NCBI GenBank assembly: GCA_017439305.1
Contig: JAFSJK010000021.1
Span: forward strand, 27,038-91,037
From: Bacteroidales bacterium
GTDB taxonomy: Bacteria > Bacteroidota > Bacteroidia > Bacteroidales > UBA932
Direction: 5' to 3'
DNA length: 64,000 bases
Positions 5,324 through 16,478 of this stretch are shown here, in pieces. The notes beneath the pieces are model-generated. The model was not told the origin of the DNA, searched no databases, and saw only the letters and a list, made by a program, of their open reading frames with translations. Positions within the stretch are counted from its first letter, which is position 1. Each line of letters begins with the position of its first letter. The translations under genes were made by a program, and so were the position numbers.

Positions 5324-7912
5324 TTACCAAAGCTGTTTATCCGTCTGTTCTGCTTGTCCTTGGAATTCAACAGGAACATTCGCAAAGAAATCAATGCCAG
5401 TACGTCCTTCAACAGCATCGATAGTTGTCGCGAAGGAGGAATACTTCTCTCCAGTATGAGATTCATTCGTAAACAAGTAGGCGATGCCCTTGGCGTCAAT
5501 CATCTCGCCAGAAGTATTGAAGGAGCATCTCATCAGCAACTTGTACACGTGACTCGGAATCGAGACGTCCTTGTTGTCATTACTGGGCAAGGTCTGGATT
5601 TCCCCTTCGAACAAAACACCGGTCACCACATAGAGGGTATCCCGTTCGGTCGGTGCCGGAATGTCCTGCTCCAACGAATTCCATACACCACCGTTGAAAC
5701 CGTTCTGCCACTGGGGAGCCTGGTTGGTATAGTAGAAGGTTTCCCGGTTGGCGTCAACACAGGTTTGCCGATCGCTTGAAGCGCAGAAATGGCCCTTGCT
5801 GAATCCGACCGTCCCGGCATTCTTCAATCCGGACTGCTGCCATGAAGACGGAATACCCGGATCGTAATCCCAACTCTCATTTCTTCCCACCTTGTTATTC
5901 GGATAAGCCTCCGCATGCATGACCTGGGCGACCCATAACGGGCAATGACGGTTTCCGTCATAAAGGACCGTATAGTTCCGATACGTTTTCCCTTGGTACA
6001 CATAGCTGTGCGTAACAGCCCGCTGCTTGCTGTCCGTGGTGTAATAATTATACCAATATGCTGTATTGTCAGACGTATTTGTTTCCTCTCCGGATCCGCT
6101 GGCAGAAGTCGTATTCACCAAATGGATGGCCGGGACCTCATAGCAGCCCAGCCACTGAAGACCGACATTCCCGCCCGAGGAAGAGGAAAGGGTCTTGAAC
6201 GAAAGGACATCCCCCGTCAGTTCCAAATAGTTCTGTCCGTCTTCACAATACTGGATGACAGCCTGGAAGTAATAGGTCGTATTCTCCTCCAGACTGGCAA
6301 GAGTCGCATGGAATTCGCCGGAAGTTACATTGAAATCCTTGGTATACAGTGTATTCGACAGGTTATCAGCCGATGTGCCCCAAAGGAAATGCGCCTCGGT
6401 GACATTGGTCCCGAGATTGGCGAACATAGCATTCAATGTGGCGGAAGAGAGGGAGATATTGGTGGCCGGTTTCGTCACAAGCGAGGGTCCAATCGACGCA
6501 AGTTTGTATAGCTGGACAGGCTGCTGGCCGCCCGTATAGCAGGCGAAACGCGGTGAAGAATCATTCCACCGGATGGTACGTCCTGTATTATAGACACTCG
6601 TAATCGTCGCATTTCCGGAAGAATCAACGGAAAGGGTCCAATCATCCCTGCTTGCGGAATAACTGGAATTGAAAAACAGACTGTTACTTGAACCGGTAAA
6701 TCCCAGATAGGAATCTCCCAACTTGAGTGAATATCCCGCCTCAGTAGCCTCAATCACAATATCATAGGGATTGCCGGCAGCATATTCAATCGCACCGTTT
6801 GTCACGGCGACGCCAGAGGCATACACGCCATAGTTGTTGTTGGAAGCCTTCCCGGAAAGGAGATTGGCGGATGTTCCGCTCATGGTATAGGCGAGCACAT
6901 AATGGCCTTCACCCAAGTCGTCATTCGACGCAACCAGCCTGTAGGCAGGCCCCTCCGACGTTGTCTTCACCGCCCTGTCCATCTTGATCGGGAGGATATT
7001 GCGGCGATTGGCGATGAACTCGCGGGTAAAGCCGGAAATCTCGCGCGTATAGGTCGCCTTGTTCGTGGCGACCTCGACCGTGAGGGAGGTGAGGGTAACC
7101 GGGAGGATAGACATCCAGAAGGTAACGTTTCCATTCTCGATGGTCAGGTTGTCGCCCTTGATGACGATCTTGTTGGCAGCCGTATTGTCATTTGTTGCGG
7201 AATACTCGCCTGTGACAATGTTCATCTTCTGTTTACCGACAAGGTTCGCGCCCTCCTGGGCAGTGAGGGTGATCATCGAAACTTTCTCTCCGGAGACAGT
7301 CCCGGGAAGGCCCTTCAAGGTGATTTGCCCGTGGGCGACGACACGGTTCCAGACAAGCATGACCGGCGTGGTCGGGCGTGACGTAAACTCGTCGATGGAA
7401 TGGCCCAGCATCAGGTCGGCAAGGCGGTCGAAGCTGTCGGCCAGCGGGGTCTGGGTGGCGGGAAGCTCCACCTCTGCGATAGGGGCGCCGTCAGTCATGG
7501 TCGTTCCGGTGGCATCGCCGGGATAGACCGCATAAAACACATGCTCCCCTTCCGTCGTACCGGAAAAACCGGCGTTGATAGAGAACGAGGCGACCGCTCC
7601 ATCCTCCGTCAGGGTCGCCATATTGGATTTATAGAGCTTGGCATCATTGGCAGATGCATTGCCAGACGCATTCTGCCACTTGCCGGCCACGGTATACCCC
7701 ATCCGGATATTATCCGCCTGGTCCCACAGGATGGTTTCCCCGTTCCAATGGGTCCTGGTTTCATCCCCGGTCTCGGTCTGGGGGCGTTCAGAAACGAATA
7801 CGATGGTGGCTTCCTCGGTTTCCGGCTCCGGAATCACCGGGATCTCTTCCTTCACCTTCTGGCATCCCGCCAGCACGGCCAATGCGAACAAGACAGGTCG
7901 GAATGAACTCAT
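5324..7912 (-). CDS. Fimbrillin-like lipoprotein with C-terminal DNA/RNA non-specific endonuclease (NUC) domain
   Basis: 862 residues. The ATG at 7912 opens a lipoprotein signal (FALAVLAGC, Cys17). Residues about 35-315 resemble the Mfa-like/fimbrillin fold (ETRTHWNGETILWDQADNIR near the start, ISGFTREFIANRRNILPIKM at the end). Residues about 322-470 are a domain shared with the lipoprotein at 9634-12072 (RTIRWN..FACYTGGQQPVQLY). Residues 475-575 look like an Fn3 fold. The C-terminal third (about 635-862) is a ββα-metal NUC nuclease: SKGHFCASSDR at 705-715 places the catalytic histidine at 708, with TNQAPQ and Asn740/Glu748 as later NUC landmarks. The usual DRGH is SKGH here. Inferred role: cell-surface nuclease. 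The ORF is intact and coupled to the tiny gene upstream. Confidence 0.87.
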   Translation of the reverse strand: MSSFRPVLFALAVLAGCQKVKEEIPVIPEPETEEATIVFVSERPQTETGDETRTHWNGETILWDQADNIRMGYTVAGKWQNASGNASANDAKLYKSNMATLTEDGAVASFSINAGFSGTTEGEHVFYAVYPGDATGTTMTDGAPIAEVELPATQTPLADSFDRLADLMLGHSIDEFTSRPTTPVMLVWNRVVAHGQITLKGLPGTVSGEKVSMITLTAQEGANLVGKQKMNIVTGEYSATNDNTAANKIVIKGDNLTIENGNVTFWMSILPVTLTSLTVEVATNKATYTREISGFTREFIANRRNILPIKMDRAVKTTSEGPAYRLVASNDDLGEGHYVLAYTMSGTSANLLSGKASNNNYGVYASGVAVTNGAIEYAAGNPYDIVIEATEAGYSLKLGDSYLGFTGSSNSLFFNSSYSASRDDWTLSVDSSGNATITSVYNTGRTIRWNDSSPRFACYTGGQQPVQLYKLASIGPSLVTKPATNISLSSATLNAMFANLGTNVTEAHFLWGTSADNLSNTLYTKDFNVTSGEFHATLASLEENTTYYFQAVIQYCEDGQNYLELTGDVLSFKTLSSSSGGNVGLQWLGCYEVPAIHLVNTTSASGSGEETNTSDNTAYWYNYYTTDSKQRAVTHSYVYQGKTYRNYTVLYDGNRHCPLWVAQVMHAEAYPNNKVGRNESWDYDPGIPSSWQQSGLKNAGTVGFSKGHFCASSDRQTCVDANRETFYYTNQAPQWQNGFNGGVWNSLEQDIPAPTERDTLYVVTGVLFEGEIQTLPSNDNKDVSIPSHVYKLLMRCSFNTSGEMIDAKGIAYLFTNESHTGEKYSSFATTIDAVEGRTGIDFFANVPVEFQGQAEQTDKQLW

Positions 7913-7913
7913 C

Positions 7914-8045
7914 TTACAACTCCTCCATCTCGTTATCGTCATACCCATTGTCGGCCCGTCCGACATTGGAATCCTGCAGGAACGCCTTCTCCTGTCGTAC
8001 CACAATCACCTCCGCCTCCGGAGGGAAATACAGTTGTTTTTTCAT
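7914..8045 (-). CDS. 43-residue protein (YxxPEAE family) coupled to the nuclease lipoprotein
   Basis: ATG at 8045, TAA at 7916-7914, one base before the nuclease ATG, so the nuclease SD (GGAG) lies inside this gene. The peptide starts MKKQLYFPPEAEVIVVRQEK and ends in an acidic tail (GYDDNEMEEL). It has no signal peptide and no membrane segment. It aligns with the 44-residue protein at 12085-12219: M(K/R)K..Y..PEAE(V/L)(I/L)VVR.E..F, then a YDD acidic end. Homology between two otherwise separate loci in the same position makes it a real gene. I know no function. Translational coupling, a chaperone-like helper or a peptide signal are all open. Confidence 0.72.
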   Translation of the reverse strand: MKKQLYFPPEAEVIVVRQEKAFLQDSNVGRADNGYDDNEMEEL

Positions 8046-8063
8046 TACAGATGATTTATCTTA

Positions 8064-8071
8064 CAAATTTA
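8064..8071 (-). promoter_or_regulatory. -7 box for the tiny gene/nuclease operon
   Basis: Minus strand TAAATTTG, a perfect TAnnTTTG, 19 nt upstream of the ATG at 8045. Confidence 0.65.
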
Positions 8072-8170
8072 GGAAAAGTATTCGGAAAGGGCAAGATGAA
8101 ACCCAGGATATGGCTGAATCAAAAATTATCGTTATTTTCGCATAAATCATTCAGAATTACACACTTGCTT

Positions 8171-9154
8171 ATGAAAAAGAGTATCCTTGCTATCGTCATT
8201 GCATTAGTGGCAACCGTATCCTGCTCGACCGAAAAGGGTTGGGTGAAGGTCGAAGGGAACAAATTCATCGACCCGGAAGGGAACGAGCTGGTTTTCCGCG
8301 GCCTTTGCCTGGCGGATCCGGTCAAGTTGGTCCGCGAAGGGCAGTGGAACGAGCGATTGTTTGCAGAAGCCGCTGATTGGGGCGCCAACATCGTCCGTTT
8401 CGCCGTCCATCCGACCAACCTGAATTCGATGGGCTGGGACAAGACTTTCGCCGCCATGGACAAGGGCATCGAATGGGCGAAACGCCATAATCTTTACGTC
8501 ATCATGGACTGGCATTCCATCGGCAACCTCAAGGAGGAGCGATATACCTCTCCCATGTATAACACGACGCTGGAAGAGACCTTCAAGTTCTGGTGCACCG
8601 TCGCCGAGCGCTACAAGGACGAACCTGCCGTCGCCCTGTATGAACTGTTCAACGAACCCACGGTGACCGGAACCGGCGACTGCACCTGGACCGAATGGAA
8701 GGAGATCCAGGAGCTGATCATCGATGCCATCCGCGAAATCAACCCCAAGGCCGTCTGCCTGTGCGCCGGCTTCAACTGGGCCTACGACCTTACCTCTGTA
8801 GCTTCCGAGCCCATCGACCGTCCCAACATCGCCTACGTTTCCCACCCCTACCCCATGAAGCGGTCCGAACCCTGGGAAGAACAGTGGGAGAAAGATTTTG
8901 GTTATGTCGCCGACACCTACCCCGTCATCTGCACGGAAATCGGCTACTGCCTCGCCGACGAACCGGGCGCGCATATCCCGGTCATGTCGACAGACGTCTA
9001 TGGCGAGCACATCACCAAGTACTTCGAAGAAAAGGGGATCTCATTCACCGTCTGGTGCTTCGACACCGCCTGGGCCCCCATGCTCATCAGCGACTGGGAT
9101 TTCACCCCCACCACCCAAGGTCGGTTCTTCAAGGCGTATCTGCAGGGGAAATGA
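8171..9154 (+). CDS. GH5 family endoglucanase-like lipoprotein
   Basis: 327 residues. I take the ATG at 8171, which begins a lipoprotein signal peptide (MKKSILAIVIALVATVSC, Cys18); the open frame extends upstream without a signal. It is a (β/α)8 retaining glycoside hydrolase of family 5: LFNEPT places the acid/base at Glu162 and ICTEIGYC places the nucleophile at Glu256; RFAVHPTNL and MDWHS are the conserved barrel arginine and histidine positions. The length fits a single catalytic domain without a binding module. GH5 enzymes cut β-glucans, mannans or xyloglucan; the exact substrate is not deducible. Probably anchored on the cell surface or periplasmic outer-membrane face. It is transcribed alone, ending in a strong terminator. 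Confidence 0.92.
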   Translation: MKKSILAIVIALVATVSCSTEKGWVKVEGNKFIDPEGNELVFRGLCLADPVKLVREGQWNERLFAEAADWGANIVRFAVHPTNLNSMGWDKTFAAMDKGIEWAKRHNLYVIMDWHSIGNLKEERYTSPMYNTTLEETFKFWCTVAERYKDEPAVALYELFNEPTVTGTGDCTWTEWKEIQELIIDAIREINPKAVCLCAGFNWAYDLTSVASEPIDRPNIAYVSHPYPMKRSEPWEEQWEKDFGYVADTYPVICTEIGYCLADEPGAHIPVMSTDVYGEHITKYFEEKGISFTVWCFDTAWAPMLISDWDFTPTTQGRFFKAYLQGK

Positions 9155-9176
9155 TGTATTTCCGTCGATTCCCTTG

Positions 9177-9202
9177 GGGCTCCTTTGACGGAGCCCTTTT
9201 TT
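9177..9202 (+). terminator. Intrinsic terminator of the GH5 gene
   Basis: GGGCTCC (9177-9183), six-base loop, GGAGCCC (9190-9196), followed by six Ts. Confidence 0.85.
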
Positions 9203-9305
9203 CTCATAAATCCATCCCACTGTGCGCCTATGGGTGCCGATTTAGGGACGTCAGGAGCACATGAACCGCAAGCCTGTGAAAAAGTCGGCGTGACTCTCTG
9301 CTCCC

Positions 9306-9449
9306 TCCGGACGCAATTGCGGAAAAACCGGTCCACACTGCATTCTACCTGCAAACGCGTCCATAAAATCGCCCTTTTCCCCACTTTCCCCGTCCGCATT
9401 TGCATCCACACCCACTTCCAAGGCCGATTTTCCGCAATTGCGTCCGGGA
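9306..9449. repeat. Perfect 21-nt inverted repeat, arms 102 nt apart
   Basis: Left arm 9306-9326 begins TCCGGACGCAATTGCGG and the right arm 9429-9449 is its exact reverse complement. CTCCC on the outer left and GGGAG on the outer right extend the match with a small offset. Each arm contains the self-palindrome CGCAATTGCG. Confidence 0.75.
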
Positions 9450-9499
9450 TGGGGAGGCACTCTACGGTTTCACCTCGTTGCGTGTTGTACCCCCACGCC

Positions 9500-9531
9500 T
9501 CGACGACAAAAAACGCCAATATTGTTGTCGA
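9500..9531. repeat. Hairpin with TCGACGACA arms
   Basis: TCGACGACAA (9500-9509) pairs with TTGTTGTCGA (9522-9531) with one wobble. A hairpin with nearly the same arms lies at 43020-43053. Confidence 0.5.
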
Positions 9532-9575
9532 ACACTCGATAACCACATCAAGTTATTTATGCCAATACTTAGATG

Positions 9576-9603
9576 CAAAAAGGGCTCCCAGATTGGGAGC
9601 CCT
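9576..9603 (-). terminator. Intrinsic terminator of the 12219-9634 operon
   Basis: On the minus strand AGGGCTCCC, five-base loop, GGGAGCCCT, then TTTTT. Confidence 0.82.
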
Positions 9604-9633
9604 AAAGAGAAAAGTTAAGGAGAATACTTCAAA

Positions 9634-12072
9634 TTAGTCTAAGACAATCGTAACTGCAACACTGAATAGACGAACGTTATAAGACGATTCTTTCTCGTGA
9701 GCAATCCTTATGCCATAAGCCTCCTCGGCAACAGGGATACTAACCGAGAAGATGGTCCCATTCTTATCCGTCACCTCTGAAGTAACAACAGTGGCCGTTT
9801 CTTCAATAATGTTACCATCCTCATCAATCAGATAGGCCATTACATTATTGGTGAGTTCTCTGGCAGATCCACCTCCAACTTTTGCAGAAAGGGTAATAGA
9901 TGCAGGAGTAGTGGAGAAAATGGCAGATTCATCTGATTTAGTAATCGTTACTTCCAAACCTTCGGTGCTACTCTTGTCCTGGTAATATCCAGACGCAGAT
10001 TTAGCTGAAATAGCATTAAACACATAGCCGCTGGTAACCACGTCCGTGGTTTCATCCCGTTCCCAAGAGAACTGAATGGCATCTCCAGCCTCATTCACTG
10101 TAACGGTATAGGTTGCGGTTTTGGTCACATCATTTTCCGTGTAGGAGACAGTCACAGTCTTATTCTCACCGGCGGAAGCGATGACGGAATCGCCATCGGT
10201 GGTTACCTTAGAAGTAACATCTTTAGTGGACCCGTCATCATAAGAAGCGGTCACCTTTCCATCGAAAACAAAGGTGTCGCCTACCGTGAAAGTCGTCTTG
10301 GTAGGAGCTGTAGTGATGGCAATTGAAACAAGTTCCGGTTCTTCTTCATCACCGGTAACTCCATTCAGAGAGTAGAGATAAGCCTTATTACCCACGGTTT
10401 CAGGGGTATTGCCCTGATAGTTCATCAATTTACCATATACAATCACCTCATCACCAACCCTGATGTCGGTCTGGCCAGATTCAAACTTCTTATTACCAAG
10501 ATACAGAACACGGAAACAATAGAACTCATTGCTGGCCGCGCCATCGTCGGAGATATAGAAGGAAGCGTTTCCGTATGTTCCTCCTGCAGTATAGGTGCCA
10601 TTATTGGCAATACGGGAAATCTTACCTTTCACATAGACATCGTCAGTTGTTTCATAGTCGGAATTCGAGTTCCATTTCAGATCCTTAACCGCATTCGCAG
10701 CTCCTAAAGCATTATACGGATCCTCAAGGGTACCAGTACCACTAGGCTGAGCACCCGCATCTTCAACAACCCAATCGAAAGGATATAAAGTTACAGGCTT
10801 CTGAGAAGCGCTGGAATAGCAACTGAAGAGAGAACTACCGGAATTAAACTGCATGACATTCCGGTTGGTAGACTTCGAAGCCTTGATGGCAAAAGTGCCA
10901 TCCTGTTCCTTTTCCACAGACCAGTAGTAATCCACACCGCCCAGCGTCGGGTTACCTTTCAGTTGGTTGGCAGTAGCAGAAGCGGCATACAGGTAATTAC
11001 CGGAAGCATCCTGGATGGTATAAAGACCTGCATAGTCGCCTTCAGCCACCTTCTCAAAATGCATCTTGATACCCTCTACATTAGAAGAAGTAATCTCCTC
11101 GTTCTCCTCATCCAGTCCAACACTGAGGGCTCTAAGGTTACTACCTCCGCTCACGAATGCCTGGGCAGCGTAAACAGATCCATTATTCTCACCGGTAATC
11201 ACCCAGTCACCCGTAAAGTCAACATCGACAACCGGTTCACCGGCAGCGAGTTTGACACCGAACCTGGAAAACTTGCCGATACTGAAATTGACCGTTCCGA
11301 AAGACTTCGTGTAAACGAATTGGTCAGACTTGACGACGACAGTCAAGGCATTGCCTTCCTGAGGCATGGTGACGAAATAAACCGGGAACTCCCCGTTCGA
11401 ACCCACCGCGACATTGTCATAGGTAAGCGTAATGGTCTTGGAATCGCTCTGCTCACTCATCGTGCTGCCGTTGTAATAACCAATCAGGTTCTTGTCGGAG
11501 GTGATGGTAATCTCATGAACCTTCTCACCGGCGACCATGTTCTTGAGGGTCATCTTGTTGATGGCGGCAGGGCGGGAGAAGTCCAGAAGCGCATCTTCCA
11601 ATTCATCCACCGTGACATCTTCGGCTACCAGTACATCGGCGTTGGGATCGAGATTGTCGACTTTCGGGCTCTGGTTTACATTGATTTTAGGTTTGTTCTT
11701 ATTCGTCCAGGCACCGGCGACAGCCGTACGGAGCGTGGACCCTTCTTCCACGGTAGCGGTCACGGTGAGAACCTTGTTGTCTTCAGAGAGGTTGACAACC
11801 CGGTCGGCAACCTCGGTCAACGTCTCCTTTCCTTCAGCATCCTCTCCGACCACGAACACCTTCAGGTTCGCCTTGTCTTCATCGGTCCACTCGTAAGAAA
11901 CTTTGCTCTCTTCTTCAACAGCAGCAGTCCTGGTTTCGTCACCGGGCTTTTCGGCCTTGAGAGTGACGGTTACCATTTTCTTGGAGGGCTCATTGACAGC
12001 AACTTCCTTCTGGCAAGCAGAGAAAGCGAGAGCGGCAAGGGCCGCGATTCCAAAATACAATGATTTCTTCAT
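9634..12072 (-). CDS. Fimbrillin-like lipoprotein with OB-fold and Ig-like domains
   Basis: 812 residues with a lipoprotein signal (LAALAFSAC, Cys20). The N-terminal part (about 30-280) resembles the fimbrillin/Mfa-like fold, with DETRTAAVEEESKVSYEWTD near its start. Residues about 285-440 hold the domain shared with the nuclease lipoprotein at 5324-7912 (NRNVMQFNSGSSLFSCYSSA then KPVTLYPF). A region beginning GTLEDPYNALGAANAV contains an OB-fold-like segment (VYVKGKISRI, FYISDDG, VYGKLMNY) of the kind often attached to secreted Bacteroidota nucleases. It is followed by a Big_3-like Ig domain (TFTVGDTFVFDGKVTASYDD) and a final β-sandwich. No catalytic motif is visible. Likely a surface binding or adhesion protein; it is coupled to the tiny gene upstream. 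Confidence 0.82.
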   Translation of the reverse strand: MKKSLYFGIAALAALAFSACQKEVAVNEPSKKMVTVTLKAEKPGDETRTAAVEEESKVSYEWTDEDKANLKVFVVGEDAEGKETLTEVADRVVNLSEDNKVLTVTATVEEGSTLRTAVAGAWTNKNKPKINVNQSPKVDNLDPNADVLVAEDVTVDELEDALLDFSRPAAINKMTLKNMVAGEKVHEITITSDKNLIGYYNGSTMSEQSDSKTITLTYDNVAVGSNGEFPVYFVTMPQEGNALTVVVKSDQFVYTKSFGTVNFSIGKFSRFGVKLAAGEPVVDVDFTGDWVITGENNGSVYAAQAFVSGGSNLRALSVGLDEENEEITSSNVEGIKMHFEKVAEGDYAGLYTIQDASGNYLYAASATANQLKGNPTLGGVDYYWSVEKEQDGTFAIKASKSTNRNVMQFNSGSSLFSCYSSASQKPVTLYPFDWVVEDAGAQPSGTGTLEDPYNALGAANAVKDLKWNSNSDYETTDDVYVKGKISRIANNGTYTAGGTYGNASFYISDDGAASNEFYCFRVLYLGNKKFESGQTDIRVGDEVIVYGKLMNYQGNTPETVGNKAYLYSLNGVTGDEEEPELVSIAITTAPTKTTFTVGDTFVFDGKVTASYDDGSTKDVTSKVTTDGDSVIASAGENKTVTVSYTENDVTKTATYTVTVNEAGDAIQFSWERDETTDVVTSGYVFNAISAKSASGYYQDKSSTEGLEVTITKSDESAIFSTTPASITLSAKVGGGSARELTNNVMAYLIDEDGNIIEETATVVTSEVTDKNGTIFSVSIPVAEEAYGIRIAHEKESSYNVRLFSVAVTIVLD

Positions 12073-12084
12073 GATCCGATCCTC

Positions 12085-12219
12085 CTATTCAAAATCGCCC
12101 TGATCATCGTAATCGTCATCAGGAATGGTGCCCGACTCAGTGGTCGCACAGAAATTCCCCTCGAATCTTACAACGAGGAGTTCGGCCTCGGGGGCCTCGT
12201 AGATTGTTTTTTTACGCAT
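12085..12219 (-). CDS. 44-residue protein (YxxPEAE family) coupled to the OB-fold lipoprotein
   Basis: ATG at 12219, TAG at 12087-12085; the lipoprotein ATG follows 12 nt later, and its SD (GGAGG) overlaps this stop codon. It starts MRKKTIYEAPEAELLVVRFE and ends DDDYDDQGDFE. It is homologous to the 43-residue protein at 7914-8045, including the PEAE core, the VVR.E..F segment and the acidic YDD tail. No signal peptide. It has its own TAnnTTTG promoter, so it leads the operon. Function unknown. Confidence 0.75.
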   Translation of the reverse strand: MRKKTIYEAPEAELLVVRFEGNFCATTESGTIPDDDYDDQGDFE

Positions 12220-12269: not shown

Positions 12270-12277
12270 CAAAGGTA
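12270..12277 (-). promoter_or_regulatory. -7 box for the 12219-9634 operon
   Basis: Minus strand TACCTTTG, a perfect TAnnTTTG; leader of about 45 nt before the tiny gene. Confidence 0.72.
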
Positions 12278-14315: not shown

Positions 14316-16478
14316 ATGAAAAGACTTCTGACCTTCTTCTTCGTCTGCCTTCCGCTACTGCTTTCGTGTGACAAGCCGGCGGAGAAATTCGTCATCGAGC
14401 CGCCCGTGAAGCCCAGCGGGCAGCAGGGACAGACGGACACGGACAATCCGGCCGGGAAGGATCCCGATACGCCTGCAACACCCATAACCCCCACGGCTCC
14501 GCCTTCGGAAACCGTCATCGTGGGCTACGCCGTTTACTGGGAATCCACAATGCCCGACCCCTCACTGCTTACGCATATCAATTACGCGTTCGCCCATATC
14601 AAAAACGATTTCGAAACCCTGGACATCAAGAAGGAAAGCCGTCTGTCGCAGATTGCAGCGCTGAAAAAACAGAAACCTTCCCTGAAAGTACTCCTTTCCG
14701 TCGGCGGCTGGGAAGCCGGCAATTTCAGCGAGATGGCAGCCAGCGAAACCCACCGGAAGAACTTCTGCAAGAACTGTTTGGCCGCAGTGAACAGGTTCGG
14801 GCTGGACGGAATCGACATCGACTGGGAATATCCGACAAGCAGTGCAGCCGGAATCTCTTCCTCCCCGGAAGACACCAAGAACTTCACGCTCCTGATGCGG
14901 GACCTGCGGGAGACGCTCGGGAAAGACAGGCTCCTGACGATGGCATCGGCCTCCAACGCCAAGTACGTGGACTTCAAGGAAGCCGTCCCCTATATGGATT
15001 TCGTCAATGTGATGACCTACGACATGGGCCATCCGCCCAAGCACAACAGTGCCTTGTACCGCAGTTCCAGGGCCTCGGAAAGCTGTGACGAGTCGGTCGC
15101 CGCCCACCATGCCGCCGGCGTCCCTTACGAGAAGATCGTCCTCGGCATCCCCTTCTACGGCCACGGAGACGGAAAGGCGTTCGACGATTATGTTGATTAC
15201 AAGGACATTGCCATCGACGGAAGTAAGTACAAGGTCATGTGGGACAATACCGCGATGGTTCCCTATGTCGTGAATTCCACCGGGGACATGGTCCTCAACT
15301 TCGACAACGACCGGTCCGTCGGGCTCAAGGCCGAATATGTCGTCCAGAAGAACCTCGCCGGGGCGATGTACTGGAACATCGAGGCCGATGACGCCTCCTT
15401 CACCCTGGGCCACGCCGTCGCCTCCCGCCTGCTGCCGGGCTACGTTCCTCCGGCTTCCCCGGAAGACCCGGACGCCATCCTTGTTACGAATCCTTATGTC
15501 CAGAAGTTCCTGGAGGAAGTGACCTATACGGATACCGACTACAAGACCACCCGAATCCTCGATTACCCCGGCGGTGGTCCCGGCGAAGCAGATATCCCTC
15601 CTACCCATACGATTACGTGGACGCCCAGTTCCTCGGCTGAAACCCTGAAGGTCTGGGAAAGCGACTGGAGCCGGGAGTACAGCCTGCCGGCCGGCACCGC
15701 CAGCCAGGACCTTACCAACCTGGTTCCGGGGCGTGAGTATCACTACAGCGTTACTTCCGGCGGAAAGGTCATTGCCAATGGGTCCTTCAAGACGCGGGGT
15801 CTGCTGCACCAGGTATACTTCGAGCCCAACGTACGCAACGCCCGCGACCTGGGAGGATGGAAGGGACTGAACGGGAAGACGGTGGCCTTCCACAAGATCT
15901 ACCGAGGCGGCCGACTCGACGGAAAGTACATGAATGACAAGGGAAAACAGGAAATGCGCGCCGAAGGAATCAAGGCCGAGCTGGACCTCCGCGAAGCGGA
16001 AGACGTTCCCTCCAAGTCCCCGCTGGGCAGCGACATCACCTTCTATGCGCCCGGTTTTGACAGCGGATACAACCACATGGTCCGGGACAACCAGCCCAAG
16101 GTGAAGGCCACCTTCGAATATGTGGTCAACTGCGTTCGGGAAGGGAAACCCCTGTATTTCCATTGCGCCGCCGGCCGCGACCGGACGGGTACCCTGGCCG
16201 TCCTGATCCTGGGCACGCTGGGCGTGAGCGAGAGCGACATGGCCAAGGACTACGAGCTCACCTACTTCTCCCCTGCCGACTGGGGAATGTCCAAGGATGA
16301 CGACGGAAACCCTGTTTACAAGCACACGCGAAACAACTACAGCTATCCGTCCATCCGCAAGACCATCTTCAACGAGACCGACAGCGGAACCTATCAGGAG
16401 CGTATCGTGAAGTACCTGCTCAAGATCGGCGTCGCGCAGAAGGACATCGACGACTTGCGGGCCCTGATGCTGGAATAA
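14316..16478 (+). CDS. Lipoprotein fusing GH18 chitinase-like, Fn3-like and tyrosine phosphatase domains
   Basis: 720 residues; ATG at 14316 begins a lipoprotein signal (FFFVCLPLLLSC, Cys18), then a Pro/Thr/Asp-rich linker to about 65. Residues about 67-375 are GH18: LLSVGGW at 126-132 and DGIDIDWE at 164-171 (catalytic Glu171), with MTYDMG and MYWNIEADD as later conserved strands. Residues about 425-495 form an Fn3-like module (HTITWTPSSS to SFKTRG). Residues about 500-720 are a Y_phosphatase3-type phosphatase: NARDLGGW at 508-515, YRGGRL, and the P-loop HCAAGRDRTG at 616-625 with nucleophile Cys617. The reading frame is unbroken, so this is a natural fusion. Secreted phosphatases with an Fn3-like lead are known in Bacteroidota; their joining to a chitinase is unusual. 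Substrates are unknown. Confidence 0.9.
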   Translation: MKRLLTFFFVCLPLLLSCDKPAEKFVIEPPVKPSGQQGQTDTDNPAGKDPDTPATPITPTAPPSETVIVGYAVYWESTMPDPSLLTHINYAFAHIKNDFETLDIKKESRLSQIAALKKQKPSLKVLLSVGGWEAGNFSEMAASETHRKNFCKNCLAAVNRFGLDGIDIDWEYPTSSAAGISSSPEDTKNFTLLMRDLRETLGKDRLLTMASASNAKYVDFKEAVPYMDFVNVMTYDMGHPPKHNSALYRSSRASESCDESVAAHHAAGVPYEKIVLGIPFYGHGDGKAFDDYVDYKDIAIDGSKYKVMWDNTAMVPYVVNSTGDMVLNFDNDRSVGLKAEYVVQKNLAGAMYWNIEADDASFTLGHAVASRLLPGYVPPASPEDPDAILVTNPYVQKFLEEVTYTDTDYKTTRILDYPGGGPGEADIPPTHTITWTPSSSAETLKVWESDWSREYSLPAGTASQDLTNLVPGREYHYSVTSGGKVIANGSFKTRGLLHQVYFEPNVRNARDLGGWKGLNGKTVAFHKIYRGGRLDGKYMNDKGKQEMRAEGIKAELDLREAEDVPSKSPLGSDITFYAPGFDSGYNHMVRDNQPKVKATFEYVVNCVREGKPLYFHCAAGRDRTGTLAVLILGTLGVSESDMAKDYELTYFSPADWGMSKDDDGNPVYKHTRNNYSYPSIRKTIFNETDSGTYQERIVKYLLKIGVAQKDIDDLRALMLE

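Follow-up and report, generated by a model that had tools for sequence, protein, structure and literature searches.

Two tiny genes in a 64,000-nucleotide stretch of a Bacteroidales genome (GenBank assembly GCA_017439305.1, contig JAFSJK010000021.1, positions 27,038 to 91,037; hereafter the window) very probably encode precursor peptides, each with a leader and a core, of a pathway for ribosomally synthesised and post-translationally modified peptides (RiPPs). The pathway resembles that of the linear polyphosphorylated peptides (LPPs), and its enzymes would act in trans. This reading is built on the peptide sequences, the gene order, an enzyme cassette and the residues of its RiPP recognition element (RRE); it predicts binding, cleavage, modification, export and function. 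Each tiny gene is followed by the gene of a surface lipoprotein, and the same arrangement recurs throughout the genome.

Tiny genes and their lipoprotein partners

Tiny gene 1 (7914..8045, minus strand) encodes a predicted RiPP precursor of 43 aa (family profile match E 1.8e-14) and tiny gene 2 (12085..12219, minus strand) one of 44 aa (E 5.7e-17). The sequence of the first has Y6-F-P-P9, E19 and F22 in the leader, followed by D25-S26 and an acidic tail; the second has Y7-E-A-P10, E20, F23 and C24 in the leader, T26-T27 replacing the usual Ser and, again, an acidic tail. The two proteins are homologous (BLASTP E 2e-7, 13/28 residues identical), and the two related genes of 43 and 44 codons proposed in the initial annotation are real open reading frames (ORFs).

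Sequence supports a two-gene operon in each case, of which the tiny gene would be the first gene and the lipoprotein gene the second. Partner lipoprotein 1 (5324..7912, minus strand; 862 aa) has a lipobox, a fimbrillin-like N-domain and a C-terminal Endonuclease_NS domain (PF01223, E 1.8e-38). Partner lipoprotein 2 (9634..12072, minus strand; 812 aa) has a lipobox and a similar N-domain, followed by weak OB-fold and Ig-like matches. The N-domain profile, of which both proteins are members, matches them at E 5.3e-76 and 1.5e-64, respectively. They are related along the first ~460 aa (BLASTP E 3e-14), and their C-terminal parts are unlike. The earlier description of two related lipoproteins with different C-termini, one of them a nuclease, therefore stands; its OB-fold/Ig assignment comes down to matches under the Pfam cut-offs, as do all matches in this part of lipoprotein 2 (OB-fold 8e-4, Rib 0.013). 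The gaps between the end of the tiny gene and the start of the lipoprotein gene are 1 nt (ATG at 7912) and 12 nt (ATG at 12072), in agreement with the 1–12 nt given previously. The promoter motifs suggested for both tiny genes were likewise found: a Bacteroidetes-type -7 motif TAnnTTTG, TAAATTTG (8064..8071, minus strand), begins 26 nt before the start codon of tiny gene 1, and another, TACCTTTG (12270..12277, minus strand), 58 nt before that of tiny gene 2.

The module of a tiny protein and a surface lipoprotein, first proposed from these two copies, proved to be far more widespread. The loose pattern Y..PE.E occurs at 28 places in the window's own genome, versus 15 for the reversed pattern, and profiles were used instead, the first with 10 members gathered by pattern and BLAST and the second with 19. 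The 10-member profile gave 19 own-genome matches (E 5.8e-22 to 0.006), all of them short ORFs with a lipoprotein gene next downstream; the 19-member profile gave 20 matches at E up to 4e-8, one more at 0.69 being set aside. All 20 tiny ORFs lie upstream of a lipoprotein gene, with gaps of 1–28 nt (19 measured by script; the 20th, 19 nt, counted by hand). The PEAE core offered as the family's signature did not hold up, only the Y and P of Y-x-x-P being nearly fixed. A comparison of 42 tiny proteins with Pfam and NCBIfam returned one stray weak match each and no family, and a search of a plasmid collection with one tiny protein gave no match.

The downstream lipoproteins of the own genome are 448–1668 aa long (19 measured, one cut by the end of its locus). 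Behind the N-domain, 19 partners carry varied payloads: Endonuclease_NS in two, BspA-type leucine-rich repeats (LRR_5) in six, and also pectate lyase, Omp28, Big_2/Big_3 and DUF4859, several having none. The N-domain profile (A8) has 33 own-genome matches at E up to 1e-3, and the tiny-linked lipoproteins make up 20 of the best 21, a rank that is partly by construction, since 19 of the 20 are rows of that profile. The other 10 of the 30 N-domain loci have no recognisable tiny gene (one of the ten, L378, was unreadable by script). At locus L387, a 68-aa ORF without YxxP occupies the tiny-gene position ~18 nt before a lipoprotein gene; it is perhaps another or a degenerate precursor. The PF13149 (Mfa_like_1) cut-off is passed by one of the 19 own-genome partners (L209, 30.2 versus 27 bits), and the N-domain has no match in the PDB.

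Outside this genome, the family was found in 50 of the 61 genomes of the same genus (E up to 0.001), in 25 of 393 genomes of the order Bacteroidales (E up to 0.01) and in 6 of 394 of the phylum, the own genome being counted in the last two; the order and phylum counts understate the spread because the profiles were built mainly on the window's genus. In another Bacteroidia family, two genomes carry tiny genes, 6 in one and 8 in the other, and a lipoprotein-like gene comes after 13 of these 14. A lipoprotein gene starts -30 to +130 nt downstream of 118 of 166 distinct tiny genes, as against 69 of 1086 control genes from loci L266–L363 (Fisher p 2e-76 on 165 tiny genes, one of the 166 having too little sequence; the lipoprotein detector is crude). 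The remaining tiny genes comprise 12 that come after large proteins sharing one C-terminal end, 35 unclassed and one with no room downstream. Judging from the sequences, the tiny genes look set to be a large, overlooked family of peptide precursors, each made with its own surface lipoprotein. Searches of one library of open-licence papers (preprints excluded) brought up no earlier account of the tiny-gene family, only papers on LPPs and on other RiPPs and RREs; two of these, on RRE-Finder (PMC7470986) and on rumen lasso peptides (PMC7533575), might bear on it.

One family, f104 (L187–L193, L203, L224–L252), has tails such as RSxLWGDDE or RxxDWxDFE, and its tiny genes mostly stand directly behind large-protein genes that share a C-terminal end. 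The ‘..GR..GLYIVNGKKV’ ends of these large proteins are presumably comparable to Por tails; the C-terminal tail model of the type IX secretion system, TIGR04183, had no match at E 1e-3 in five of them. At L204 (435–1760, plus strand), a BspA-type LRR protein of 441 aa ends, in frame, with a stretch resembling a tiny protein.

The signature of the family was derived from 151 non-redundant sequences aligned on Y, and the Ser and tail counts from 164. With Y at position 0, P stands at +3 (0.99), E at +13 (0.74) and S at +19 (0.66) or +20 (0.37); other conserved positions are K at -3 (0.62), E at +6 (0.54), V/I/L at +7, +8 and +10, I/F/L at +16 and A/C/L at +17. Ser occurs within +18 to +21 in 159 of the 164 tiny proteins, tiny protein 2 of the window being one of the five exceptions. 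The tail is variable, with a median of ~20 residues and a median net charge of -4, and 104 of the 164 sequences have W among the final 12 residues. The pooled ratio of non-synonymous to synonymous substitution rates (dN/dS) is 0.24 over 24 pairs, a value biased downwards because the pairs were picked at ≥55% protein identity; changes at codon positions 1, 2 and 3 number 256, 215 and 490. The profile search and dN/dS check recommended in the initial annotation thus revealed many homologues with their frames kept, clearly not the lack of homologues or the broken frames that would have spoken against a gene family.

Such short upstream genes might also be leader ORFs, whose translation merely couples or tunes that of the lipoprotein while the peptide itself is idle. 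The gaps are short, mostly 10–30 nt, and TAnnTTTG occurs within 120 nt upstream of the tiny gene in 44 of 163 cases (9.9 expected), compared with 2 of 115 (3.5 expected) for the 120 nt at its end; the motif precedes the tiny gene and does not lie within it. The amino acids of Y-x-x-P, however, are conserved across orders, the tiny genes are under purifying selection, and they also head cassettes without a lipoprotein (L284, L286, L352) or sit behind other genes; a leader ORF is accordingly a highly improbable explanation.

Two further genes of the window encode glycosidase-like proteins. A GH5 cellulase-like gene at 8171–9151 (plus strand; E 1.3e-37), with a lipobox recognised by eye, is divergent from tiny gene 1, with ~125 nt between them. 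A single ORF at 14316–16475 (plus strand) shows an unusual pairing of glycosyl hydrolase 18 (E 2.2e-69) and tyrosine-phosphatase PF13350 (E 2.3e-30).

RRE and enzyme cassettes

The available part of one report (PMC12710340) gives Y-x-x-P as the recognition motif of lasso-peptide RREs, and for this reason the PqqD/RRE family was sought in genomes with and without tiny genes. It is present in 18 of 20 tiny-positive and 7 of 20 tiny-negative genomes (Fisher p 8e-4), a comparison in which the negative genomes were unmatched by phylogeny and a diverged tiny gene could be missed in them. Neighbourhoods were then read for some or all of the RREs of each genome. In 17 of the 18 RRE-bearing tiny-positive genomes, the RRE stands beside at least two of an S26-like peptidase, an HprK-like kinase, NTP_transf_5 and an ATP-binding cassette (ABC) exporter. 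Among the seven RRE-bearing tiny-negative genomes, this set is intact in G023, decayed in G297, represented by weak matches only in G019 and absent from G014, G017, G018 and G022. The decayed cassette (L398) has an RRE frame with a stop and NTP_transf_5 in two pieces; the genome that carries it is from the window's family and gave no tiny gene.

The own genome has a cassette on contig C19 (L270), where an S26-like peptidase, an RRE (L270:8121-8390, minus strand; E 3.7e-14), NTP_transf_5 (PF14907, E 3.8e-36) and an MsbA-like ABC transporter (ABC_membrane, E 3e-39) are encoded on one strand; a Wzc/Wzz-like gene (PF02706, E 1.7e-8) lies 2.4 kb beyond. In LPP systems, as far as the accessible text of PMC13381572 describes them, residues N33 and D70 of the RRE LppB hold the YxxP of the leader. 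Among 70 distinct RREs, 69 have the N and 67 the D at the equivalent positions, and the own-genome RRE has both. All 15 aligned S26-like peptidases retain the Ser, the His and the Asp.

The tiny proteins would be lasso peptide precursors in another explanation, which is suggested by the YxxP leader and by the matches of the RRE: in the PDB its profile finds, at E 0.01, only the lasso RRE 6jx3, and it matches NCBIfam lasso_PqqD_Strm at E 1.7e-5, under the cut-off. An S26-like peptidase, however, takes the place of the lasso protease, and no macrolactam synthetase-like or B2-like gene was noticed in the gene tables read, where no dedicated search was made. A lasso product is extremely unlikely.

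In named genomes, scanning with an HprK alignment gave at least 80 loci; the following figures hold among the 80 listed. The S26-like peptidase is present in all 80, an RRE in 44, NTP_transf_5 in 18 and a tiny gene, within the available flank, in 20. Among the matches listed, a tiny gene lies ≤5.5 kb from the cassette in 13 of the 44 RRE-bearing loci, and 5 of the 12 read gene by gene have the full order tiny gene, lipoprotein, RRE, NTP_transf_5, ABC transporter, HprK-like kinase and S26-like peptidase: L309, L337 (uncultured Bacteroides), L346 (Phocaeicola sartorii, several frames split), L353 (Bacteroides sp. 519) and L360. In L287, L310 and L316 the tiny–lipoprotein pair adjoins cassette genes that are arranged differently, L310 (B. 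oleiciplenus) having two pairs. No lipoprotein intervenes between tiny gene and cassette in L286, L352 or L284 (Dysgonomonas sp. 511), the last running tiny gene, HprK, S26-like peptidase, RRE, NTP_transf_5, ABC. No tiny gene is in view at the cassette of L357 (Candidatus Cryptobacteroides merdigallinarum). Since tiny–lipoprotein pairs occur inside cassette operons, the lipoprotein can be a cluster member, and the pairs of the window look like satellites; they are best read as satellite precursor/lipoprotein units of an LPP-like system that would act in trans. A further group of loci, L288–L341, mostly titled Alistipes, has the pair of HprK-like and S26-like genes, in many cases joined by an ABC transporter, but no RRE that could be recognised.

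Proposed maturation and partnership with the lipoprotein

For LPPs, the accessible text of PMC13381572 reports precursors that carry YxxPxVLxHQxIxFETxxS, cleavage of the leader by LppS and phosphorylation of Ser3 of the core by LppK. In the tiny-gene system, the RRE would bind the YxxP leader, and the S26-like peptidase would remove it, at a site that the LPP analogy puts after about Y+14 and the signal-peptidase rule behind the A/C-x-S of Y+17 to +19. In systems that have an HprK-like kinase, this enzyme would phosphorylate a Ser near Y+19/+20. The ABC exporter would then carry the acidic core out, and the core may act with the surface lipoprotein of the same mRNA, the less certain step. Among the roles suggested in the initial annotation, that of a peptide product has gained ground through the YxxP leader and through the RRE/peptidase/kinase/exporter cassettes, which occur in the same genomes and elsewhere in the same operon; those of an export helper and of translation control received no direct support.

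Several findings weigh against a precursor of this kind. The RRE was not found in 2 of the 20 tiny-positive genomes, G285 (89% complete) and G845 (78% complete), and in a third, G812, the RRE examined is isolated. No HprK-like gene adjoins the own-genome cassette within the neighbourhood searched. Among the 80 listed loci, 36 have no RRE match and 60 no tiny gene in the available flank. The S26-like peptidase matches NCBIfam signal peptidase I at E 1.8e-8 and 1.7e-6, both under the cut-offs; the HprK-like proteins, found in many cassettes, match TIGR04352 weakly (E 3e-4 to 6e-4), also under the cut-off, and have no match in the PDB. In family f104, 18 of 25 readable loci have a large-protein gene that ends -4 to 49 nt before the tiny gene. 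Thr is not phosphorylated in LPPs, according to the same part of PMC13381572, and tiny protein 2 has Thr for the usual Ser. Finally, the FET cleavage motif, which ends the LPP leader before xxS, is absent from the tiny proteins, and the system is therefore filed as LPP-like and not as LPP proper.

In the own genome, the distance between tails correlates with that between N-domains (r 0.73, p 0.0002), and does so without two close paralogs (r 0.30, p 0.0009). With these paralogs left out, the leader shows no such correlation (r -0.05, p 0.69) and the whole tiny protein a slight one (r 0.13, p 0.08), only the tail staying significant. The tail also correlates with the payload (r 0.60). Over 106 pairs from all loci, the correlation with the N-domain is r 0.41 for the tail given the leader and r 0.15 for the leader given the tail (p 0.0005 in both cases). 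These distances would suit a core in contact with the lipoprotein; shared ancestry of the two genes accounts for part of the signal.

The same correlation, together with the constant pairing, also speaks for a cytosolic chaperone or export adaptor of the lipoprotein that undergoes no RiPP chemistry. Tiny genes, however, co-occur with the cassette and are joined directly to RRE/peptidase/exporter genes, in some loci without an intervening lipoprotein, and such an adaptor is very improbable. If the tiny proteins are RiPP precursors, it is conceivable, though rather doubtful, that one RRE cassette matures ~20 of them in trans and that each exported, possibly phosphorylated core is a private ligand or structural partner of the lipoprotein from the same mRNA. 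Possible roles of the core would include that of a complementing strand and that of a capsule tether, with the lipoprotein payload (nuclease, LRR adhesin, pectate lyase) freely swapped; RiPP chemistry would serve the display of surface proteins and not a diffusible natural product.

A survey of RiPPs in 1,136 Bacteroidales strains stressed radical S-adenosylmethionine and YcaO clusters and GG leaders (PMC10352776), and its main text makes no mention of HprK, fimbrillin or nucleotidyltransferase. A survey of this kind would miss precursors that are 40–70 aa long, absent from Pfam and NCBIfam and mostly encoded away from the enzymes. If the precursor reading is true, small proteins beside surface proteins gain a testable function, LPP-like chemistry reaches beyond the Bacillota, LPPs gain a concrete partner protein to test, and some gut bacteria may produce a whole unlooked-for set of modified peptides.

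Comparison with known systems

The closest known systems are the LPPs (LppA/B/K/S/D/N), described in 2026 and restricted to Bacillota according to their authors (PMC13381572, on whose accessible text this comparison draws). Like LPP precursors, the tiny proteins are short, with a conserved N-terminal YxxP leader and a variable C-terminus. The enzyme set is the same: an RRE that stands by itself and keeps the Asn and Asp, an S26-type peptidase with Ser-His-Asp, like the archaeal-type signal-peptidase-like leader peptidase of LPPs, an NTP transferase and an MsbA-like exporter, joined in many cassettes by a putative HprK-like kinase. A capsule-type Wzc/Wzz gene is nearby in 9 of 78 loci of ≥12 kb, own genome included. 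The E and Ser of the tiny proteins are one residue off the LPP distances from Tyr; the β-bulge reported for the LPP leader could explain part of this offset. In contrast to LPPs, the tiny-gene systems occur in Bacteroidia, HprK is missing from some cassettes, and a genome has ~20 precursors, most of them away from the enzymes and each paired with a lipoprotein.

Lasso peptides share the YxxP leader and a related B1 RRE, and differ in the protease. Mfa_like_1 (PF13149) fimbrillins share the lipobox and a related N-domain with the partner lipoproteins. Here, however, varied payloads stand behind the N-domain (nuclease, BspA-type LRR, pectate lyase, Omp28, Ig-like), and the gene of the predicted precursor precedes that of the lipoprotein.

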